Source: Paraflavitalea sp. CAU 1676 (GTDB taxonomy: Bacteria; Bacteroidota; Bacteroidia; Chitinophagales; Chitinophagaceae). Taken from it: a DNA stretch of 64,000 nt. The position numbers were made by a program, and so were the translations under genes. Location: NCBI RefSeq assembly GCF_029223285.1, contig NZ_JARHUJ010000004.1:62001-126000 (forward strand). The letters are read 5' to 3'. Below are positions 47,454 to 55,891 of this stretch, piece after piece. Position 1 is the stretch's first letter. Each line of letters begins with the position of its first letter. The notes under the pieces are model-generated. The model made no database searches and had not been told where the DNA came from. It saw only the letters and a program-made list of their open reading frames with translations.

Positions 47454-50400
47454 ATGCGTAAACACCTGTTGGCCTTAACAACCGTATCGGTTGTTATTTT
47501 TTTGCTTGCCTGTAATCGAAGTATCGTCAACCTCGATTATACCAATGCCAAAGGGGAAGTACATTCCCTCGGTAACCTGGTATTCCGCTTCGATCAGGCA
47601 CTGGTAGCCGATTCACTCCTGAATCAATGGGACTCTACGGATTATGTTGACTTCGAGCCCAAGATCCCCGGCCGCTTCCGTTGGGAAGCACCCGATCAGC
47701 TTGTATTCTCCCCGGCCCGCCCGCTACCGCCGGCCACCAGTTTCAAGGCTACTATCAATAACGACGTACTCCAGCACAGCAAGTATGGAAAGATCGGTAA
47801 GGCCGAAGATCTTGCCTTCTCTACGCCATTCCTGCAGTTGGATAATACCAATGTAACGTGGACACTCACGGATGAACGCAGCACCAATGCCATCCCGCAG
47901 GTAGACCTCTATTTCAATTACCCCGTCAACCCGGCAACGATCAAGGAAAAGCTGAAGCTGGAGATCGGTGGTAAAATAGCCAATTATGATGTGATCACGC
48001 TTTCGAACGATAGCAAGGTTTCTTTACGCGTATTGGGTATAAAAGCAGAAGACAAAGACCTCGATGCGGTGGTGACGCTCGACAAGGGACTTATTCCCGA
48101 GGGTGGCACCAACGGTACCAAAGAGGCCATCGAAAACAAACTGACCATTCCTTCCCCCTTCAACCTGAGCATTAATGATGTTACGGCCGAACATGATGGT
48201 ACCGGCGGTACGGTCTATGTACGCACCAGCCAACAGGTGCTGCTCGACGGACTTGCCGCACGCATTCAATTTGATCCTGCCGTAAAATTCACTGTGCAGG
48301 AAATGGAAGATGGCTTCAGCATAAGCGGTGATGGATTCGATGCTGATAAAACCTATAGCCTTAAATTATTGAAAGGCTTACGTGGTAAGATCGGCGGCGT
48401 ATTGCGTGAGGAATACAACGGCAATGTGGCCTTCGGTGAGCTGGAGCCTTCTCTCAGCTTTGCCAACGGCAAAGGAGTTTACCTGTCGGCCAAAGGCAGT
48501 CAGAATATTGAAGTGAAGATCATCAATATACCAAAGGTAAAAGTGATCATATCCAAGATATACGAAAGCAACCTGTTGTTTGCACAGCGCTATGGTTACT
48601 ACCCCAAAGATTCGCGCCGGGATTCGGACGAAGAAGAATATTACGAGGAAGACTACGGTAGCAGCGATGTATCGATGGGCGATGTGGTATTTGAAAAAGA
48701 GATCGAAACACGCACCCTGCCCAAATTCGGCAACAGCCGCCTGTTTACTTTTAATGTAGACGACCGCCTGCCCGATTTCAAAGGTATCTACCATATCAAG
48801 ATACGATCCACTACCGACTACTGGGTCAATGATAGCCGGTTCATCTCCAAATCTGACCTGGGTCTCATCGCCAAAGAAGGCAAGGATAAACTCTATGTAT
48901 TTGCCAATAGTATTAAATCGGCCGCTGCAGTAAATGGCGTGAATGTGATTGCCTACGGCGGCAACAACCAGGTACTGGGTATGGGCACCACCAATGCCGA
49001 GGGCGTGGCCGAACTGGCGCTCACCCGCAAGGAGTTTGCAGGTTTCCGCCCCGCCATGATCATCGCCAAAACAGCTGATGATTTCAACTACCTGCCCTTC
49101 AATACCACGCGGGTGAACACTTCGCGTTTCGAAGTAGGCGGTAAAAGAAGCAACAGCACCGGTATGGACGCCTTTATTTATGCCGAAAGGGATATTTACA
49201 GGCCAGGAGAGAAAGTGAATTTTTCAGTGATCCTGCGCGACAAGCAATGGAAATCGCCCGGTGAACTGCCCGTGAAGATGAGGTTCCTGATGCCCAATGG
49301 TAAGGAACTGAAGAACTTCCGGAAGTCACTCAATGCCCAGGGCTCCCTGGAAGCTGATGTAGATATAGCCGTATCGGCCATTACCGGCAGCTACACCCTC
49401 GAGGTATACACCTCCAATGATGTGCTGCTCGGAACAAAGAACTTCAGCATTGAAGAGTTTGTGCCCGACAGGATCAAGGTATCGGCCAAACTGGACAAAC
49501 CTTCGCTGGCGCCTGGTGCTTCAACCACTTTAAGCATCAATGCGCTCAATTTCTTCGGGCCTCCGGCTGCCAACCGCAACTACGAGGCAGAGATACAGAC
49601 CAAGGTGAAATACTTCAGTCCGAAAAAGTTCAACAGGTTCAGCTTTGGTCTCGAGAACCAGGGATTGTCGTTCGACAATGTGGTGAAAGAAGGCAGCACC
49701 GACGACAATGGTAATGCCTCCATCAGCTATTCGGTGCCCGATATCTATGCTAATAAAGGATTGTTGCAGGCTACTTTTTTTGCTACTGTATTTGACGAAA
49801 CGGGCCGCCCCGTAAGCCGCAGCACCTCGGCCGATATCTTTACCCAAAATGTGTTCTTCGGCGTAGGCAATGATGGATATTATTACTATCCACTCAATCA
49901 GCAGGTCCGCTTCCCCATCATAGCGCTCGACAAAAACGAAAATGTAGCGAGCAGCAAGGCCGATGTGAAAGTGATCAAACATGAATACCGCACCATCTTG
50001 CGCAAAGAAGGGAATTACTTCCGCTATGAGTCGCAGCAGGAAGACCGGATCGTATCGCAGCAGCAACTTTCTGTAACAGGTGAAGCGACCGCCTATTCTT
50101 TTGTGCCCCGCTCGCCGGGCAATTATGAGTTGCGTGTATCAATTCCCGGCGCATCGAGCTATGTAAGTACTTCATTCTACAGCTACGGCTCCTGGGGTGG
50201 AGATAACAGCTCGTTCGAAGTGGATGCTGAAGGCAATATCGATATCGAGCTGGATAAATCGACCTATCAAACTGGCGAGAGCGCTAAGGTATTGTTCAAA
50301 ACACCTTTCAGCGGCCGCATGCTGGTGACCATGGAAACCGATAAAGTCGTTTCTTATCAATATGTAAATGTGGAGAATCGTACCGCTTCGGTCGATCTGA

Positions 50401-52853
50401 AATTGTCGGCTGAGCACCTGCCCAACGTATATGTTACAGCTACCCTGATCAAGCCACATGAATTGAGTGAAATTCCGCTCACTGTAGCACATGGCTTCAA
50501 GAGCATCCGCGTAGAAGAAAACGATCGCAAGATCGCCGTTCAAATAGATGCTCAGAAGTCTGTAAGGTCACGTACCCACCAAACCGTGAAAGTGAAAGCC
50601 ACACCGGGCAGCTTCGTAACCCTTGCTGCGGTAGACAATGGTGTGTTGCAGGTAAGTGATTTTAAAACGCCCGATCCGTATGGATACTTCTATGCCCCCA
50701 AATCGCTGGAAGTGCAGGCTTATGATATGTACCCCCTGCTGTTTCCCGAGCTGCGTGCCCGCCTCAGCAGCACCGGTGGTGACGGCGACCTGGAAATGAA
50801 CAAGCGTACGAACCCCATGCCCGCCAAGCGCGTGAAGATCGTTTCTTACTGGAGCGGTATCGCCAAAGCCGATGGCAGTGGCAATGCGAGCTTCGAATTC
50901 GATATTCCTCAGTTTAGTGGCGAAGTACGTCTGATGGCTGTTGCTTATAAAGACGAAAGCTTCGGCAGCACCGAGTCGGCGATTACTGTGGCAGACCCGT
51001 TGGTATTGAGTACGGCCCTGCCAAGGTTCCTGAGCCCCGGCGATACGGCCACCGTGCCGGTGATCATTACCAATACGACGGCGAAGAGTACGTCGGCTAC
51101 CGCAACGTTGAATGTAAGCGGACCGCTCAAGGTAATAGGTGATAGCCGTCAATCAGTATCACTTAATGCCAATAGTGAGAACCGCGCTGTATTCCAGATC
51201 GTGGCGGCGCCTGCTGTTAATGTGGGTAAGGTGTCGGTTGAAGTGCAGGGACTGGGCGAAAAATTCAATGACGAAACCGAGATCGGTGTGCGTCCTGCCT
51301 CTCCTTTGCAGGTGCAAACGGGTGCAGGAACTATTTCGGGTGGCAATACACAACGGGTTAGCATACCGCTCAATGATTTCATGCCGGGCAGTTCAAGTTA
51401 TCAACTGGTGGTGAGCCGCAGCCCTGCCCTCGAACTGGGCAAGCAATTGCGGTACCTGGTACAATATCCATATGGCTGTACGGAGCAAACCGTATCGGCC
51501 GCCTTCCCGCAATTGTATTATGATGATATGATGCAGCAGATGAATCCGAAAAAGGCCGGCGGATCGGGCGCTAATTATAATGTGCTAGAAGCGATCCGCA
51601 AGATCAAGCTGCGGCAGTTGCACACCGGCGGTGTTACCCTGTGGGATGGTGAGGGCACCGAGCAGTGGTGGACCTCTGTATATGCTGCACACTTCCTGAT
51701 CGAAGCACAGAAGGCAGGGTTCGATGTAGATAAGAGCCTGTTGAACGGACTTACCAGTTTCATGAACAACCGACTCAAGAACCGGGAAACGATCAGCTAT
51801 TATTATAACCAGAAAGAGCAAAAGAAGATAGCACCCAAAGAGGTGGCTTATAGCTTGTATGTGCTTGCATTGGCCGGTAAACCGAATGTATCGGTCATGA
51901 ACTATTACAAGGCCAATCCTTCCTTGTTGAGCCTGGATAGTAAATACCTGCTGAGCGTAGCGTATGCCATTGCAGGCGATAAAACGAAGTTCAGGGAAAT
52001 GTTACCAACCTCCTTTGCCGGCGAAGAATCGGTGGCGCAAACAGGCGGCAGTTTCTACTCCGATATCCGGGATGAGGCGGTTGCGCTCAATGCGTTGCTG
52101 GATGTAGATCCCGGCAATGGGCAGGTACCGGTAATGACGTCGCATGTAGCTACCAAGCTCAAGCAGCGCACCTGGTTCAGCACGCAGGAATGTTCATTCA
52201 GTTTCCTGGCACTGGGCAAACAGGCAAGGGCTGCCAACAAAGCCACTGTAACGGCCGAGGTGAAAGTGAATGGTAAAACCGTAGGAAAAGCGGAGACTAA
52301 TACCCTCAAATTGAATGCACAGCAATTGGGCAGCAATAATGTGGAGATCGTCACCAAGGGAGAAGGTCGCCTTTATTATTTCTGGGAGAGCGAAGGGATT
52401 AGTGTAAGCGGCAGCTATAAAGAGGAAGACAATTATATCCGGGTGCGCCGCAAGTTCTTCGACCGTTACGGTCGTGCCGTTACGGGTAATACCTTTAAGC
52501 AGAACGACCTGGTGATTGTGCAGCTTAGTTTGGAAAAAGCCTATAATGGCGATGTAGAGAATATCGTGATCACCGATCTGCTGCCTGCCGGCTTCGAGAT
52601 CGAGAACCCCCGTACCAGGGAAATACCGGGTATGGACTGGATCAAGGATGCTTCCACACCAACCTACCTGGACGTGCGTGATGACCGGATCAATTTGTTT
52701 GTTGATCTTAGGAGCGGTCGCCAGACATACTATTATGCCGTACGCGCCGTATCTCCGGGCTTGTACCGCATGGGGCCTGTGAGTGCCGACGCCATGTACA
52801 ATGGAGAATACCATTCTTATAATGGTGCGGGTGTGATCAGGGTGACTCAATAA
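47454..52853 (+). CDS. Alpha-2-macroglobulin family lipoprotein (bacterial A2M)
   Basis: 1799 aa. Lipobox LLAC with Cys20, so it is a lipoprotein. The long multi-domain body (MG domains, bait-like regions) leads to the thioester motif YGCTEQ with Cys1342, which traps attacking proteases covalently. A C-terminal receptor/TonB-like-free beta domain follows. Bacterial A2M with an intact thioester, next to PBP1C, is the YfhM type, which guards the periplasm while the wall is damaged. The pbpC gene is divergent at 444 bp. A low-complexity acidic stretch DEEEYYEEDYG near residue 390 is unusual and may be a flexible loop or bait region. Confidence 0.95.
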   Translation: MRKHLLALTTVSVVIFLLACNRSIVNLDYTNAKGEVHSLGNLVFRFDQALVADSLLNQWDSTDYVDFEPKIPGRFRWEAPDQLVFSPARPLPPATSFKATINNDVLQHSKYGKIGKAEDLAFSTPFLQLDNTNVTWTLTDERSTNAIPQVDLYFNYPVNPATIKEKLKLEIGGKIANYDVITLSNDSKVSLRVLGIKAEDKDLDAVVTLDKGLIPEGGTNGTKEAIENKLTIPSPFNLSINDVTAEHDGTGGTVYVRTSQQVLLDGLAARIQFDPAVKFTVQEMEDGFSISGDGFDADKTYSLKLLKGLRGKIGGVLREEYNGNVAFGELEPSLSFANGKGVYLSAKGSQNIEVKIINIPKVKVIISKIYESNLLFAQRYGYYPKDSRRDSDEEEYYEEDYGSSDVSMGDVVFEKEIETRTLPKFGNSRLFTFNVDDRLPDFKGIYHIKIRSTTDYWVNDSRFISKSDLGLIAKEGKDKLYVFANSIKSAAAVNGVNVIAYGGNNQVLGMGTTNAEGVAELALTRKEFAGFRPAMIIAKTADDFNYLPFNTTRVNTSRFEVGGKRSNSTGMDAFIYAERDIYRPGEKVNFSVILRDKQWKSPGELPVKMRFLMPNGKELKNFRKSLNAQGSLEADVDIAVSAITGSYTLEVYTSNDVLLGTKNFSIEEFVPDRIKVSAKLDKPSLAPGASTTLSINALNFFGPPAANRNYEAEIQTKVKYFSPKKFNRFSFGLENQGLSFDNVVKEGSTDDNGNASISYSVPDIYANKGLLQATFFATVFDETGRPVSRSTSADIFTQNVFFGVGNDGYYYYPLNQQVRFPIIALDKNENVASSKADVKVIKHEYRTILRKEGNYFRYESQQEDRIVSQQQLSVTGEATAYSFVPRSPGNYELRVSIPGASSYVSTSFYSYGSWGGDNSSFEVDAEGNIDIELDKSTYQTGESAKVLFKTPFSGRMLVTMETDKVVSYQYVNVENRTASVDLKLSAEHLPNVYVTATLIKPHELSEIPLTVAHGFKSIRVEENDRKIAVQIDAQKSVRSRTHQTVKVKATPGSFVTLAAVDNGVLQVSDFKTPDPYGYFYAPKSLEVQAYDMYPLLFPELRARLSSTGGDGDLEMNKRTNPMPAKRVKIVSYWSGIAKADGSGNASFEFDIPQFSGEVRLMAVAYKDESFGSTESAITVADPLVLSTALPRFLSPGDTATVPVIITNTTAKSTSATATLNVSGPLKVIGDSRQSVSLNANSENRAVFQIVAAPAVNVGKVSVEVQGLGEKFNDETEIGVRPASPLQVQTGAGTISGGNTQRVSIPLNDFMPGSSSYQLVVSRSPALELGKQLRYLVQYPYGCTEQTVSAAFPQLYYDDMMQQMNPKKAGGSGANYNVLEAIRKIKLRQLHTGGVTLWDGEGTEQWWTSVYAAHFLIEAQKAGFDVDKSLLNGLTSFMNNRLKNRETISYYYNQKEQKKIAPKEVAYSLYVLALAGKPNVSVMNYYKANPSLLSLDSKYLLSVAYAIAGDKTKFREMLPTSFAGEESVAQTGGSFYSDIRDEAVALNALLDVDPGNGQVPVMTSHVATKLKQRTWFSTQECSFSFLALGKQARAANKATVTAEVKVNGKTVGKAETNTLKLNAQQLGSNNVEIVTKGEGRLYYFWESEGISVSGSYKEEDNYIRVRRKFFDRYGRAVTGNTFKQNDLVIVQLSLEKAYNGDVENIVITDLLPAGFEIENPRTREIPGMDWIKDASTPTYLDVRDDRINLFVDLRSGRQTYYYAVRAVSPGLYRMGPVSADAMYNGEYHSYNGAGVIRVTQ

Positions 52854-52876: not shown

Positions 52877-52921
52877 CAGGGCCAATAACCAGGTGGGCAG
52901 TGCCACCGGTTATTGGCCCTG
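52877..52921 (+). terminator. Strong terminator of the alpha-2-macroglobulin gene
   Basis: Perfect 14-bp stem (CAGGGCCAATAACC / GGTTATTGGCCCTG) with an inner GGTGG/CCACC pairing in the 17-nt loop, followed by GTTTTTGAT. It lies 24 bp after the A2M stop and before the sigma factor gene. Confidence 0.92.
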
Positions 52922-52954: not shown

Positions 52955-52962
52955 TACCTTTG
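52955..52962 (+). promoter_or_regulatory. Possible -7 element of the sigma-factor gene
   Basis: TACCTTTG fits TAnnTTTG exactly and lies 18 bp before ATG 52981. No matching TTG element is found at the usual spacing (TTTTTG at 52923-52928 is 26 bp away), so the promoter call is weak. Confidence 0.35.
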
Positions 52963-52980: not shown

Positions 52981-53811
52981 ATGAATGAACTACGTCCTTT
53001 GTTAACGACCTACGCCTACAATATCATGGGCTCCCTCGAAGAGGCGAAAGACATTGTACAGGATGCCTTCCTCAAATTTATCCCTATCGACAGCGATAGG
53101 ATAGAAGATAAAAAGAACTACCTCATCCGCACGGTGGTCAACCTGGCCATCAACGCCAAGAAAAGGCAGCAGAAAACGGTGTCGGAATATGTAGGCCCCT
53201 GGCTGCCCGAACCTGTTGCCACAGAAAGAGCCGATTCGGCAGTCATCCAGAAAGAAGTGTTATCCTATTCATTGATGGTATTGCTGGAAAAGCTCAATGT
53301 AAAACAAAGGGCCGTCTTCATCTTAAAGGAGGCCTTCGACTACGACCACGATGAAATTGCCCAGGTACTCGATATCACGGCCGAAAACTCGAGGAAGTTA
53401 TTGAGCAGAGCGCGTGAGCAATTGCAAAAAGGAACACCCATCGCACATAAACCAGTCGAAGCCGATTACATCAACAAGTACCTGACTGTAATTCAACAGG
53501 GTGATACCAGGCAGCTGGAACAGCTGTTTCATGATGAGATCACGCTTGTCTCCGACGGTGGCGGTAAAGCGGTGGCAGCTACCAGGCCGTTGCTGGGTAT
53601 TAAGTCGGTGATCAGCTTTTTGCAAGGTGTGTACAATAAGACCTATCAGAAGCTGCGCTGTGAAGTGGGGCATGTTAACCACGAACCTGCCTTGTTTTAT
53701 TATTTGGAGGGACAATTGGTTACCTGCCAGATATTTGTGATCGAAGAGGGGCAGGTGGCCAATATCTATTTCATGCGTAATCCCGATAAACTGAAATTCC
53801 TTCAAAAATAA
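52981..53811 (+). CDS. ECF41-type extracytoplasmic-function sigma factor with SnoaL-like C-terminal extension
   Basis: 276 aa from ATG 52981; a GTG 13 codons upstream is less likely. Sigma region 2 spans about 1-65, region 4 about 97-150 (AVFILKEAFDYDHDEIAQVL and ENSRKLLSRARE). After region 4 comes a C-terminal SnoaL-like extension (about 155-276) which in ECF41 proteins controls the sigma's activity in place of an anti-sigma factor. All three ECF41 signatures are present: WLPEP (74-78) in the linker, DGGGK (192-196) and NPDKL (267-271). The carboxymuconolactone-decarboxylase-type partner, the usual ECF41 target, follows 69 bp downstream. Signal unknown. Confidence 0.92.
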   Translation: MNELRPLLTTYAYNIMGSLEEAKDIVQDAFLKFIPIDSDRIEDKKNYLIRTVVNLAINAKKRQQKTVSEYVGPWLPEPVATERADSAVIQKEVLSYSLMVLLEKLNVKQRAVFILKEAFDYDHDEIAQVLDITAENSRKLLSRAREQLQKGTPIAHKPVEADYINKYLTVIQQGDTRQLEQLFHDEITLVSDGGGKAVAATRPLLGIKSVISFLQGVYNKTYQKLRCEVGHVNHEPALFYYLEGQLVTCQIFVIEEGQVANIYFMRNPDKLKFLQK

Positions 53812-53822
53812 TTGGTTCCGGT

Positions 53823-53855
53823 TGTCACGTTTTTTCCTCCTGGTTTGTTTTCTAT
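53823..53855 (+). promoter_or_regulatory. Candidate ECF41 promoter of the carboxymuconolactone-decarboxylase gene
   Basis: TGTCACG (53823-53829) matches 6 of 7 bases of the ECF41 -35 element TGTCACA as I recall it. The expected -10 (CGTC) after 16 bp falls at 53846-53849, which reads TGTT, so the -10 is poor; TCTATA at 53851-53856 is another option. The site lies between the sigma gene and its partner's ATG (53881). No such motif is seen upstream of the sigma gene. Confidence 0.55.
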
Positions 53856-53880
53856 ACATAAATCATAAAAACAAACAGTT

Positions 53881-54348
53881 ATGGAAAGGATTTCATATTC
53901 CTCGTTGCCCAACGGATTGTACCAGGTAATGGCCAATGTAGAAGTATACCTGGCTAAGTGTGGACTTGATCATAAGTTCCTGGAGCTCATCAAATTCAGG
54001 GTTTCACAGATTAACAATTGTGCGTATTGTCTCGATATGCATTACAAAGAAGCGATCCATGCAGGTGAAACACCTTTGCGTTTGATCTCTGTATCGGCCT
54101 GGCGCGAAACGCCTTATTATACGCCCGCAGAGCAGGCTGCACTCGAATTCGCTGAAGTGCTTACGCATATGCCAGCCGAACAACACAGTGATCATCTGCA
54201 TGATGAACTGAACAAGTATTTTACCAAAGATGAAATTGCCAACCTTACGTTAGCCATTGCGCAGATCAATTCCTGGAACAGGCTTACCCGTTCATTCGGT
54301 GCGGTGCCCGGTAATTACAAAGTAAAGGAACGCCCTGTAACTGCTTAA
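53881..54348 (+). CDS. Carboxymuconolactone decarboxylase/AhpD-family protein (ECF41 partner)
   Basis: 155 aa, cytoplasmic. The AhpD/CMD motif is RVSQINNCAYCLDMHYKEA with Cys47, Cys50 and His54, the redox pair and proton relay of alkylhydroperoxidase AhpD-like enzymes. Length and motif fit the CMD-type members that ECF41 sigma factors typically control. Its exact reaction is unknown; peroxide or quinone stress is a common guess. A strong terminator follows at 54431-54475. Confidence 0.9.
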   Translation: MERISYSSLPNGLYQVMANVEVYLAKCGLDHKFLELIKFRVSQINNCAYCLDMHYKEAIHAGETPLRLISVSAWRETPYYTPAEQAALEFAEVLTHMPAEQHSDHLHDELNKYFTKDEIANLTLAIAQINSWNRLTRSFGAVPGNYKVKERPVTA

Positions 54349-54682
54349 TGCAGGAAGATGGCGGTATGAAAGATCACCGGGACGGTTACTTCCGGTGAAC
54401 CGCCTGATAGCCATGGATTAACAATCTTTCTGCCAATGATCGATAACTACTGCACGTAATTATCGGTCATTGGCATTTTTGCGGGCCATTTGTAATTTAC
54501 CCCCATTCATCCGCCATTCGCTTCCATTGACTCAATTGCTGTAATCCGCATCTTTGAAATGGCCGATCTTTGTAGCTCCCTCCTGATCATCCGCCATACT
54601 AATTACTGCGAAGAGGATTTTTTCACCAACAATATTGGTAAAGGTTTGTTGTTGGATACCACAACTGTTAAACCGAGAAAAT
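54349..54682. other. Intergenic region between CMD gene and MFS transporter
   Basis: 334 bp. Contains a short inverted repeat TCACCGG / CCGGTGA (54374-54380, 54392-54398) and the main terminator at 54431-54475. No convincing gene is seen before the MFS start at 54683. Confidence 0.6.
54431..54475 (+). terminator. Intrinsic terminator of the ECF41/CMD unit
   Basis: TGCCAATGATCGATAA (54431-54446) pairs with TTATCGGTCATTGGCA (54460-54475), 16 bp with one G-U pair, loop 13 nt, followed by TTTTT. It lies 82 bp after the CMD stop. Confidence 0.9.
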
Positions 54683-55891
54683 ATGAGTCGCAAAGAAAGG
54701 ATCATTTTATTCATCCTGGCCTGTCTGAATTTTACCCATATCCTTGATTTCATGATCATGATGCCTTTGGGCAATTACCTGATGCCTTATTTCGGTATGT
54801 CGACAAAGTTCTTCAGTTTGATCGTGGCCGCCTATCCTGTCACCGCCTGTATCTCGGGGTTGATTGCTGCCTTCTATGTCGACCGGTTCGACAGGAAGAA
54901 AGTATTGCTCTTTGCCTATACCGGCTTTATTATAGGAACTATTTCCTGCGGTATTGCACCAGGACCAGGTTTGTTGATGGCTGCGCGGATCCTCACAGGA
55001 CTGTTTGGTGGTTTGATCGGCGCGCAGGTGTTGTCGATCATTGCAGATATTTTCCCCTATGAAAAACGTGGACAGGCCATGGGTACTATCTTTATGGCAT
55101 TTTCAGTAGCATCGATAGCGGGCGTACCTTTTAGTTTATACCTCGCCAGTTTGATCAGTTGGCATGCTCCTTTCATCTTTATCGGGATATTGGGTATTGC
55201 GCTGGTTCCTTTTATTATCCGGTTCCTGCCGCCGATGAAGATACATTTAGCGCCTGCAGGCGATACAACCGTAAAACCACCCGTTACCAAAGTACTGGGG
55301 GATATCATACGCAACAAACCGCAGATCACAGCTTTGTTCATGTCGGGCATCCTCTTCATGGGGCATTTTATGATCATTCCGTTTATTAACCCGTACATGG
55401 AATTCAATATGGGGTTTTCGAAAACGCAAACCCCTTTGATCTATATGATCGGTGGTAGCTTTACACTGGTGTCGTCGTTCCTGATCGGGAAGCTGTCTGA
55501 CAAATATGGCAAGTTTCGCATCTTCACCATTTGCCTGTTCTGCTCGCTGGTGCCGGTGTTGTTCATCACCAATATGCCGGCTATACCTTTCGTGGGTGTA
55601 CTGGCCATTTTTGCGATCTGGTTCGTATTTTCTTCCGGCCGCAATATTCCGGCACAAGCTATGATCACGACGGTAGTCAACCCGGCGCAGCGTGGTCAGT
55701 TTATGAGTTTCATTTCTTCCTTTCAACAACTGTTTACCGGACTAGCGTCGATCATTGCGGGTATGATCGTGGTGGAAGGTGCGCACGGAAAGATACAGCG
55801 CTATAGTTGGGTAGGTTACTTGAGTGTAACCATTGTTGCCAGTACTTTCTTTATTGCCCGCAGCCTGGCACGCCAGCAACAACTGCATTGA
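54683..55891 (+). CDS. Major facilitator superfamily transporter (DHA1-like)
   Basis: 402 aa from ATG 54683, about 12 transmembrane helices. MFS motif A is visible as VDRFDRKK after TM2 (near residue 71), and a second copy-like GKLSDKYGK lies in the loop after TM8. The PYEKRGQAMGTI segment is typical of the drug:H+ antiporter DHA1 branch (sugar efflux or AraJ/Bcr type). The substrate is not predictable. It is monocistronic, with a terminator after it. Confidence 0.9.
   Translation: MSRKERIILFILACLNFTHILDFMIMMPLGNYLMPYFGMSTKFFSLIVAAYPVTACISGLIAAFYVDRFDRKKVLLFAYTGFIIGTISCGIAPGPGLLMAARILTGLFGGLIGAQVLSIIADIFPYEKRGQAMGTIFMAFSVASIAGVPFSLYLASLISWHAPFIFIGILGIALVPFIIRFLPPMKIHLAPAGDTTVKPPVTKVLGDIIRNKPQITALFMSGILFMGHFMIIPFINPYMEFNMGFSKTQTPLIYMIGGSFTLVSSFLIGKLSDKYGKFRIFTICLFCSLVPVLFITNMPAIPFVGVLAIFAIWFVFSSGRNIPAQAMITTVVNPAQRGQFMSFISSFQQLFTGLASIIAGMIVVEGAHGKIQRYSWVGYLSVTIVASTFFIARSLARQQQLH

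Follow-up and report, generated by a model that had tools for sequence, protein, structure and literature searches.

A sigma factor–CMD gene pair of the ECF41 type in Paraflavitalea sp. CAU 1676 with a conserved promoter ahead of the CMD gene, and a sigma residue that correlates with the first base of the -10 element

The sigma factor gene and the CMD/AhpD-like gene behind it most probably (about 0.85, as judged from sequence comparison) form a non-autoregulated ECF41 module, in which a sigma factor made at basal level would serve one target without feedback. The parts of this module, their conservation and their fixed geometry were observed directly, and the positions below refer to the window, which is the whole 64,000-nt stretch of DNA analysed.

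47454-52853, same strand as the sigma gene: A2M-type gene
52877..52921, + strand: hairpin followed by a T run, terminator-like, between the A2M and sigma genes
52955..52962, + strand: TACCTTTG, a match to the Bacteroidota housekeeping -7 consensus TAnnTTTG ahead of the sigma gene
52981..53811, + strand: ECF41-type sigma factor gene, 276 aa, with region 2, region 4 and a SnoaL-like C-terminal extension; residues N54 and N58
53823..53829, + strand: TGTCACG, -35 element of the ECF41 promoter
53846..53849, + strand: TGTT, -10 element, 16 nt past the -35 heptamer and 31 nt ahead of the CMD start codon
53881..54348, + strand: CMD/AhpD-like protein, 155 aa, with CxxCxxxH; predicted sole target
54431..54475, + strand: hairpin followed by a T run, terminator-like, past the CMD gene
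54683-55891: MFS transporter gene downstream of the pair

The sigma protein contains PF04542 and PF08281, for regions 2 and 4, above the Pfam cut-offs, and its Pfam listing shows no family for region 3. An initial annotation had assigned it to the ECF41 type by the signatures WLPEP, DGGGK and NPDKL, all three of which are present in the protein; exact copies were found in 52, 46 and 42, respectively, of the 73 Bacteroidota loci surveyed below, while DGGGK, a signature taken from that annotation, does not occur in the part of the text of PMC3426412 that was available. The same annotation had described a SnoaL-like extension. An extension of about 126 residues past region 4 is indeed present and is spanned by the full-length SigX4 model (5-279 of 281). 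SnoaL_2 was not reported at E 0.001 when the whole protein was scanned, and scanning the last 126 residues by themselves brought it to E 0.00078, short of the Pfam cut-off. The sigma protein scores under the curated NCBIfam cut-offs of TIGR02957 (258 bits vs 323) and PRK09636 (241 vs 271), which was not treated as defining because they are named for the subfamilies SigX4 and SigJ and not for ECF41 as a whole. The best PDB match by sequence is Mycobacterium tuberculosis SigJ (E 5e-27). A structure model of low confidence (pLDDT 60.3, pTM 0.43; built from 4 sequences) was used as support only; its best fold match is likewise SigJ, with NTF2/SnoaL-like folds also found. Overall, a SnoaL-like nature of the C-terminal extension is weakly supported. 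The nearest named relatives by the window sigma are Paraflavitalea pollutisoli (78%), placed in Chitinophagaceae, Bacteroidota, and a Niastella MAG (72%).

The next gene had been read as CMD/AhpD, which agrees with PF02627 and the CxxCxxxH motif at 53881-54348, and it is the likely target; Pseudomonas aeruginosa PA0269 is among the nearest solved relatives of its product. Both the A2M and MFS neighbours were scanned and neither is an anti-sigma factor, while the CMD gene adjoins the sigma gene, a setting that agrees with ECF41, whose members neighbour a CMD, oxidoreductase or epimerase gene and lack an anti-sigma gene. The MFS transporter is similar to the model of MxcK, a myxochelin exporter, at E 8e-88, but scores below the model cut-off. 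The hairpin ahead of the sigma gene has arms of 14/14 and -37.2 kcal/mol (z -6.8), and the one past the CMD gene has -26 kcal/mol (z -5.7).

The sigma–CMD gap of 69 nt, with both genes on one strand, carries the promoter TGTCACG-N16-TGTT, 31 nt from the CMD ATG. Its -35 element, already recognised in the initial annotation as lying between the genes, matches TGTCACA at six of seven bases. TGTCACR alone is not rare, with 5 occurrences in the window vs 13.2 expected; TGTCACR-N16-YGTY occurs a single time in the window with both strands counted, and when the 69-nt gap was dinucleotide-shuffled 200,000 times, 141 of the shuffles contained it. Also as first described, the sigma gene lacks such a site, with no TGTCAC within 300 nt upstream on either strand. 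The -10 element had been thought odd and perhaps particular to Bacteroidota, an idea that did not hold. The 5′-RACE-mapped promoter of Bacillus licheniformis ydfG has TGTCACA with TGTT, 16 nt apart (PMC3426412), so the window's -10 is an already published ECF41 -10, and Bacteroidota loci themselves use TGTT, TGTC or CGTC. The same source gives TGTCACA with CGTC for the Rhodobacter sphaeroides RSP_0606 promoter, also mapped by 5′-RACE, and a general ECF41 spacer of 16 ± 1 nt.

ECF41 relatives were drawn from overlapping sets of genomes (195 from the family, 198 from the order, 5 from the genus, 395 from the phylum, 395 from the class and 92 from another family), supplemented by three named contigs and 8 stretches taken from surveyed genomes. 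The phylum draw gave matches at E 1e-20 in 22 of 395 genomes, with the extension missing from some. A total of 88 loci were picked as ECF41 candidates, with L004-L008, L012 and L063-L066 omitted as ordinary ECFs or short matches. From these, L109 was dropped for having no ORF, 12 loci failed the filter that one matching stretch must cover residues 15-240, and L094 and L095 were removed as duplicates of L009 and L010, judged by equal scores and layout, leaving 73 Bacteroidota loci. The filter lost true members, since some failing loci are complete ORFs (L107, 325 aa; L115, 277 aa).

When these loci were aligned on TGTCAC alone, (T/C)GT(C/T) emerged 23-26 nt further on, corresponding to N16. The signal was clear at 15 sites before sigma and 39 just after sigma, and weaker at 26 sites further upstream (G at column 24 in 18 of 26), some of which probably match by chance. 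Of the 73 loci, 58 have in their scanned zones a site whose spacer is 15-17 nt long (N16 in 51 of these), and no such site was found in the scanned zones of the other 15, L002 included. A site ahead of sigma is present in 15 of the 73 loci, and 12 of these have another one behind sigma; the missing site before the sigma gene is thus common, though no rule of the phylum.

The window belongs to a clade of 15 loci (support 82 in a quick tree), and comparing the regions upstream of CMD in relatives, as the initial annotation had advised, revealed TGTCAC-N16-xGT(C/T) ahead of CMD in 15/15, with TGTT in 11, TGTC in 3 and AGTC in 1. CMD lies directly behind sigma in 14 of the 15 loci and within the same locus in the 15th, and in L047 and L049 the promoter site overlaps the end of the sigma gene. 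The sigma proteins of the clade are 51-78% identical to the window sigma; the boxes and their exact spacing are kept, while the spacer sequence varies more and is T-rich in the closest relatives. On the sigma strand, TGTCAC is absent from the 300 nt upstream of sigma in all 15, and L010 carries two on the opposite strand there. In search output, the sigma genes of the relatives L050 and L061 contain stops.

TAnnTTTG is the housekeeping -7 element of Bacteroidota. Within 110 nt upstream of sigma, it was detected on the coding strand of 10 of the 15 clade loci vs 1 of 15 on the other strand, and the corresponding figures for the 15 loci having a site before sigma were 3 vs 1. The element is missing ahead of sigma in five of the clade loci. 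Sigma lies within about 25 nt of an A2M gene in L038, L042 and L043, which lack TAnnTTTG, and may there be transcribed from the A2M gene. Overall, an A2M gene stands upstream of sigma in 8 of the 15 clade loci, at distances from 13 to about 880 nt.

The one-target layout proposed at the outset was supported. In the whole genome (8.84 Mb), TGTCACG-N16-TGTT has five exact matches. The match in the window has the CMD start 58 nt downstream, the other four sit in mechanical ORFs of 188, 195, 385 and 616 aa, and one of these four has a short ORF start 106 nt downstream. The window match alone combines an ORF start 20-200 nt downstream with a position outside any ORF >180 aa, a contrast that is soft because the window site is itself overlapped by a 153-aa antisense ORF, taken as spurious. 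A wider regulon was considered and rejected: TGTCACRN16TGTY has 8 matches in the genome vs 8 for the reversed control pattern, and 49 vs 46 across five genomes of the genus, while the looser TGTCACRN15-17YGTY gave 25 vs 75 for the control. These genome-wide counts of sequence matches fit a single target without being able to prove one.

Several sites outside the window's pair were recorded. A palindromic TGTCACATnGCATGTGATA-like site lies 89-94 nt before a hemH-like gene (named by eye) in two genomes, the window's own (L014, C1:370687) and a sister genome (L146), and was set aside because the palindrome resembles another regulator's operator. In L144 of a sister genome (G162:C2:1426829), an NAD(P)-binding oxidoreductase-like gene, also named by eye, has TGTCACA-N16-TGTC 46 nt ahead of it; the gene is remote from the ECF41 genes detected there and is a possible unlinked target. 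Besides the window sigma, the window's own genome encodes two further ECF41-like sigmas, and the three may cross-talk. The second (L002, C1:71443) has the order CMD, RidA-like (named by eye), sigma, and its CMD promoter (site at 359 of the locus) keeps TGTCACG with no YGTY at N14-18; its relatives L103 and L104 have TGTCACG-N16-TGTT. The third (L003, C5:119837) has an autoregulated layout, with TGTCACA-N16-TGTC both ahead of sigma and ahead of the gene of a downstream 135-aa hydrophobic protein.

With these two further sigmas in the genome, and the L003 sites differing from the window promoter at only two specified bases, the CMD promoter might be read mainly by another of the three, leaving no private circuit. 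We regard this as improbable, as promoter forms track the sigma tree among the Bacteroidota ECF41 loci (TGTT, TGTC or canonical CGTC by clade) and as CMD stays with its sigma throughout the clade. Less probable still is that CMD is a plain second gene of a sigma–CMD operon and TGTCACG-N16-TGTT a functionless inherited relic, for although the genes lie on one strand 69 nt apart and no terminator-like site is listed on the + strand of the gap, the boxes and exact spacing are retained at 51-78% sigma identity while the spacer varies more, the site accompanies the inverted CMD upstream of sigma in L045 (TGTCACA-N16-TGTT, 55 nt before the CMD ATG), and TGTCACG-N16-TGTT remains ahead of CMD in L050 despite its broken sigma gene.

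For the non-autoregulated module, we infer the activity of the sigma factor, its signal and the function of the enzyme as follows. The sigma factor would be made at basal level from a housekeeping promoter, as suggested by TACCTTTG and the upstream hairpin, and its fused SnoaL-like C-terminal domain would stand in for an anti-sigma factor, probably sensing a small molecule or redox signal by analogy with published ECF41 members. Once active, it would bring RNA polymerase to TGTCACG-N16-TGTT behind its own gene, so that the CMD/AhpD-like gene is transcribed; the product, which keeps CxxCxxxH, is probably a thiol (hydro)peroxidase or reductase. The terminator-like hairpin would close the unit, and read-through from the sigma gene into the CMD gene may occur.

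The -10 dialects were compared with the residues of the sigma factors. TGTT is found in most of the window clade and in four further loci from that half of the tree; most of the others have TGTC, and the CGTC clade comprises 13 loci with the target upstream, 11 having CGTC and 2 no site. For the residue count, 18 plasmid loci from Actinomycetota, Pseudomonadota and one cyanobacterium, obtained from 60 records listed of 287, were added to give 91 loci, of which 18 had no site and 73 had one; 10 of the latter, with G, A or a mixed first base, were set aside. In the remaining 63 loci, residue 58 is Asp in 24/24 with CGTY and is not Asp in 39/39 with TGTY (N 37, T 2), making it the best of 276 positions for the first -10 base, with a leave-one-out score of 1.000 on the same 63 loci from which the rule was derived. 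The Fisher value of 6e-18 overstates the association, as the independent contrasts with good support on the tree number only 3, all pointing the same way (p 0.25). Residue 54 was rejected as the determinant, with a leave-one-out score of 0.937 vs 1.000 for residue 58; the two residues are told apart by L155 (R54, N58, TGTC) and L150 (N54, D58, CGTC at N15). No clear candidate was obtained for residues tied to the seventh base of the -35 or the last base of the -10, for which the independent changes (7 and 5, respectively) were too few.

The hold-out consisted of 34 new loci (8 from plasmids and 26 from Bacteroidota, with the shorter matches L179-L181 unused), 10 without a site, 3 with another or mixed first base and 21 with C or T alone. 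The rule was right for 17 of these 21 and wrong for four, which all belong to a single genus that combines D58 with TGTC at a spacing of 15 nt. Other N15-spaced loci have A or G as the first -10 base. At N16 sites, counted over the Bacteroidota loci and the hold-out with the first 18 plasmids left out, D58 goes with 17 C and 1 A, N58 with 55 T and 3 G, and T58 with 3 T. As a correlation among sequences, the rule holds at 16-nt spacing but breaks down in much of the 15-nt class. In Bacteroidota, N15 spacing and an xGTC -10 of variable first base occur in L074, L111-L113, L193, L196-L199 and L202; most of these have D58, and two (L111, L112) have N58. No site was seen in L091, L106 and L108, which the tree places with L074 and L111-L113.

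In an alignment with sigmaH, residue 54 corresponds to N88, a position occupied by Arg in SigJ, and residue 58 would correspond to N92. SigmaH N88 touches the T of the -10, and N92 makes contact with the template-strand base of the G:C pair next to it (PMC6411747). Lin and others suggested that in sigmaL the CG immediately upstream of the -10, by their own -10 numbering, could be read by the end of this region (PMC6372665). Sinorhizobium meliloti RpoE9 (L154) has D58, and its mapped promoter has CGTC (PMC6180224). It is tentatively proposed, at somewhat less than even odds, that a single residue of the region 2 recognition helix sets the first -10 base at 16-nt spacing, Asp giving CGTY and Asn/Thr giving TGTY. 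If so, B. licheniformis Ecf41 (TGTT) would be expected to have Asn/Thr and R. sphaeroides Ecf41 (CGTC) to have Asp, and ECF41 paralogues in one cell could keep separate promoter dialects. Such a rule may already be implied by a published ECF code, since Todor 2020 (PNAS), as described in PMC8103513, links residues to bases across ECFs.

Other bacteria were already known to have this sigma–CMD layout with its promoter, and the pair is in this respect ordinary. What the comparison adds is that a promoter mapped in few organisms is now extended to dozens of Bacteroidota loci, mostly with a fixed 16-nt spacer, and that the idea of a phylum-specific -10 is corrected. Residue 58 makes it possible to test, with one mutation, how the base preceding the -10 GT is read by ECF sigma factors, and its correlation provides a handle for building insulated ECF41 switches. 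The 2012 ECF41 census held two Bacteroidota proteins (PMC3426412), and no ECF41 promoter study in Bacteroidota was seen among the matches listed, judged by title and the start of the abstract.

Among the known systems, B. licheniformis Ecf41Bli-ydfG (Wecke 2012, PMC3426412) shares with the window the fused C-terminal regulator, the CMD gene as a single target and TGTCAC-N16-TGTT. It differs in the seventh base of the -35 (A, vs G in the window) and in that the window's host belongs to Bacteroidota; the housekeeping-like element before sigma was looked for in the window only. S. meliloti RpoE9-SMb20029 (PMC6180224) and R. sphaeroides Ecf41Rsp-RSP_0606 (PMC3426412) resemble the window in being ECF41 systems with one CMD target and a TGTCACA -35. 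However, both have a -10 of CGTC; the S. meliloti CMD gene lies ahead of sigma, and that of R. sphaeroides belongs to a proposed bicistronic operon. M. tuberculosis SigJ (PDB 5xe7), the best match of the window sigma in the PDB by both sequence and fold, is 28% identical to it in the structural alignment, and positions 54 and 58 are R and D in SigJ but N and N in the window.
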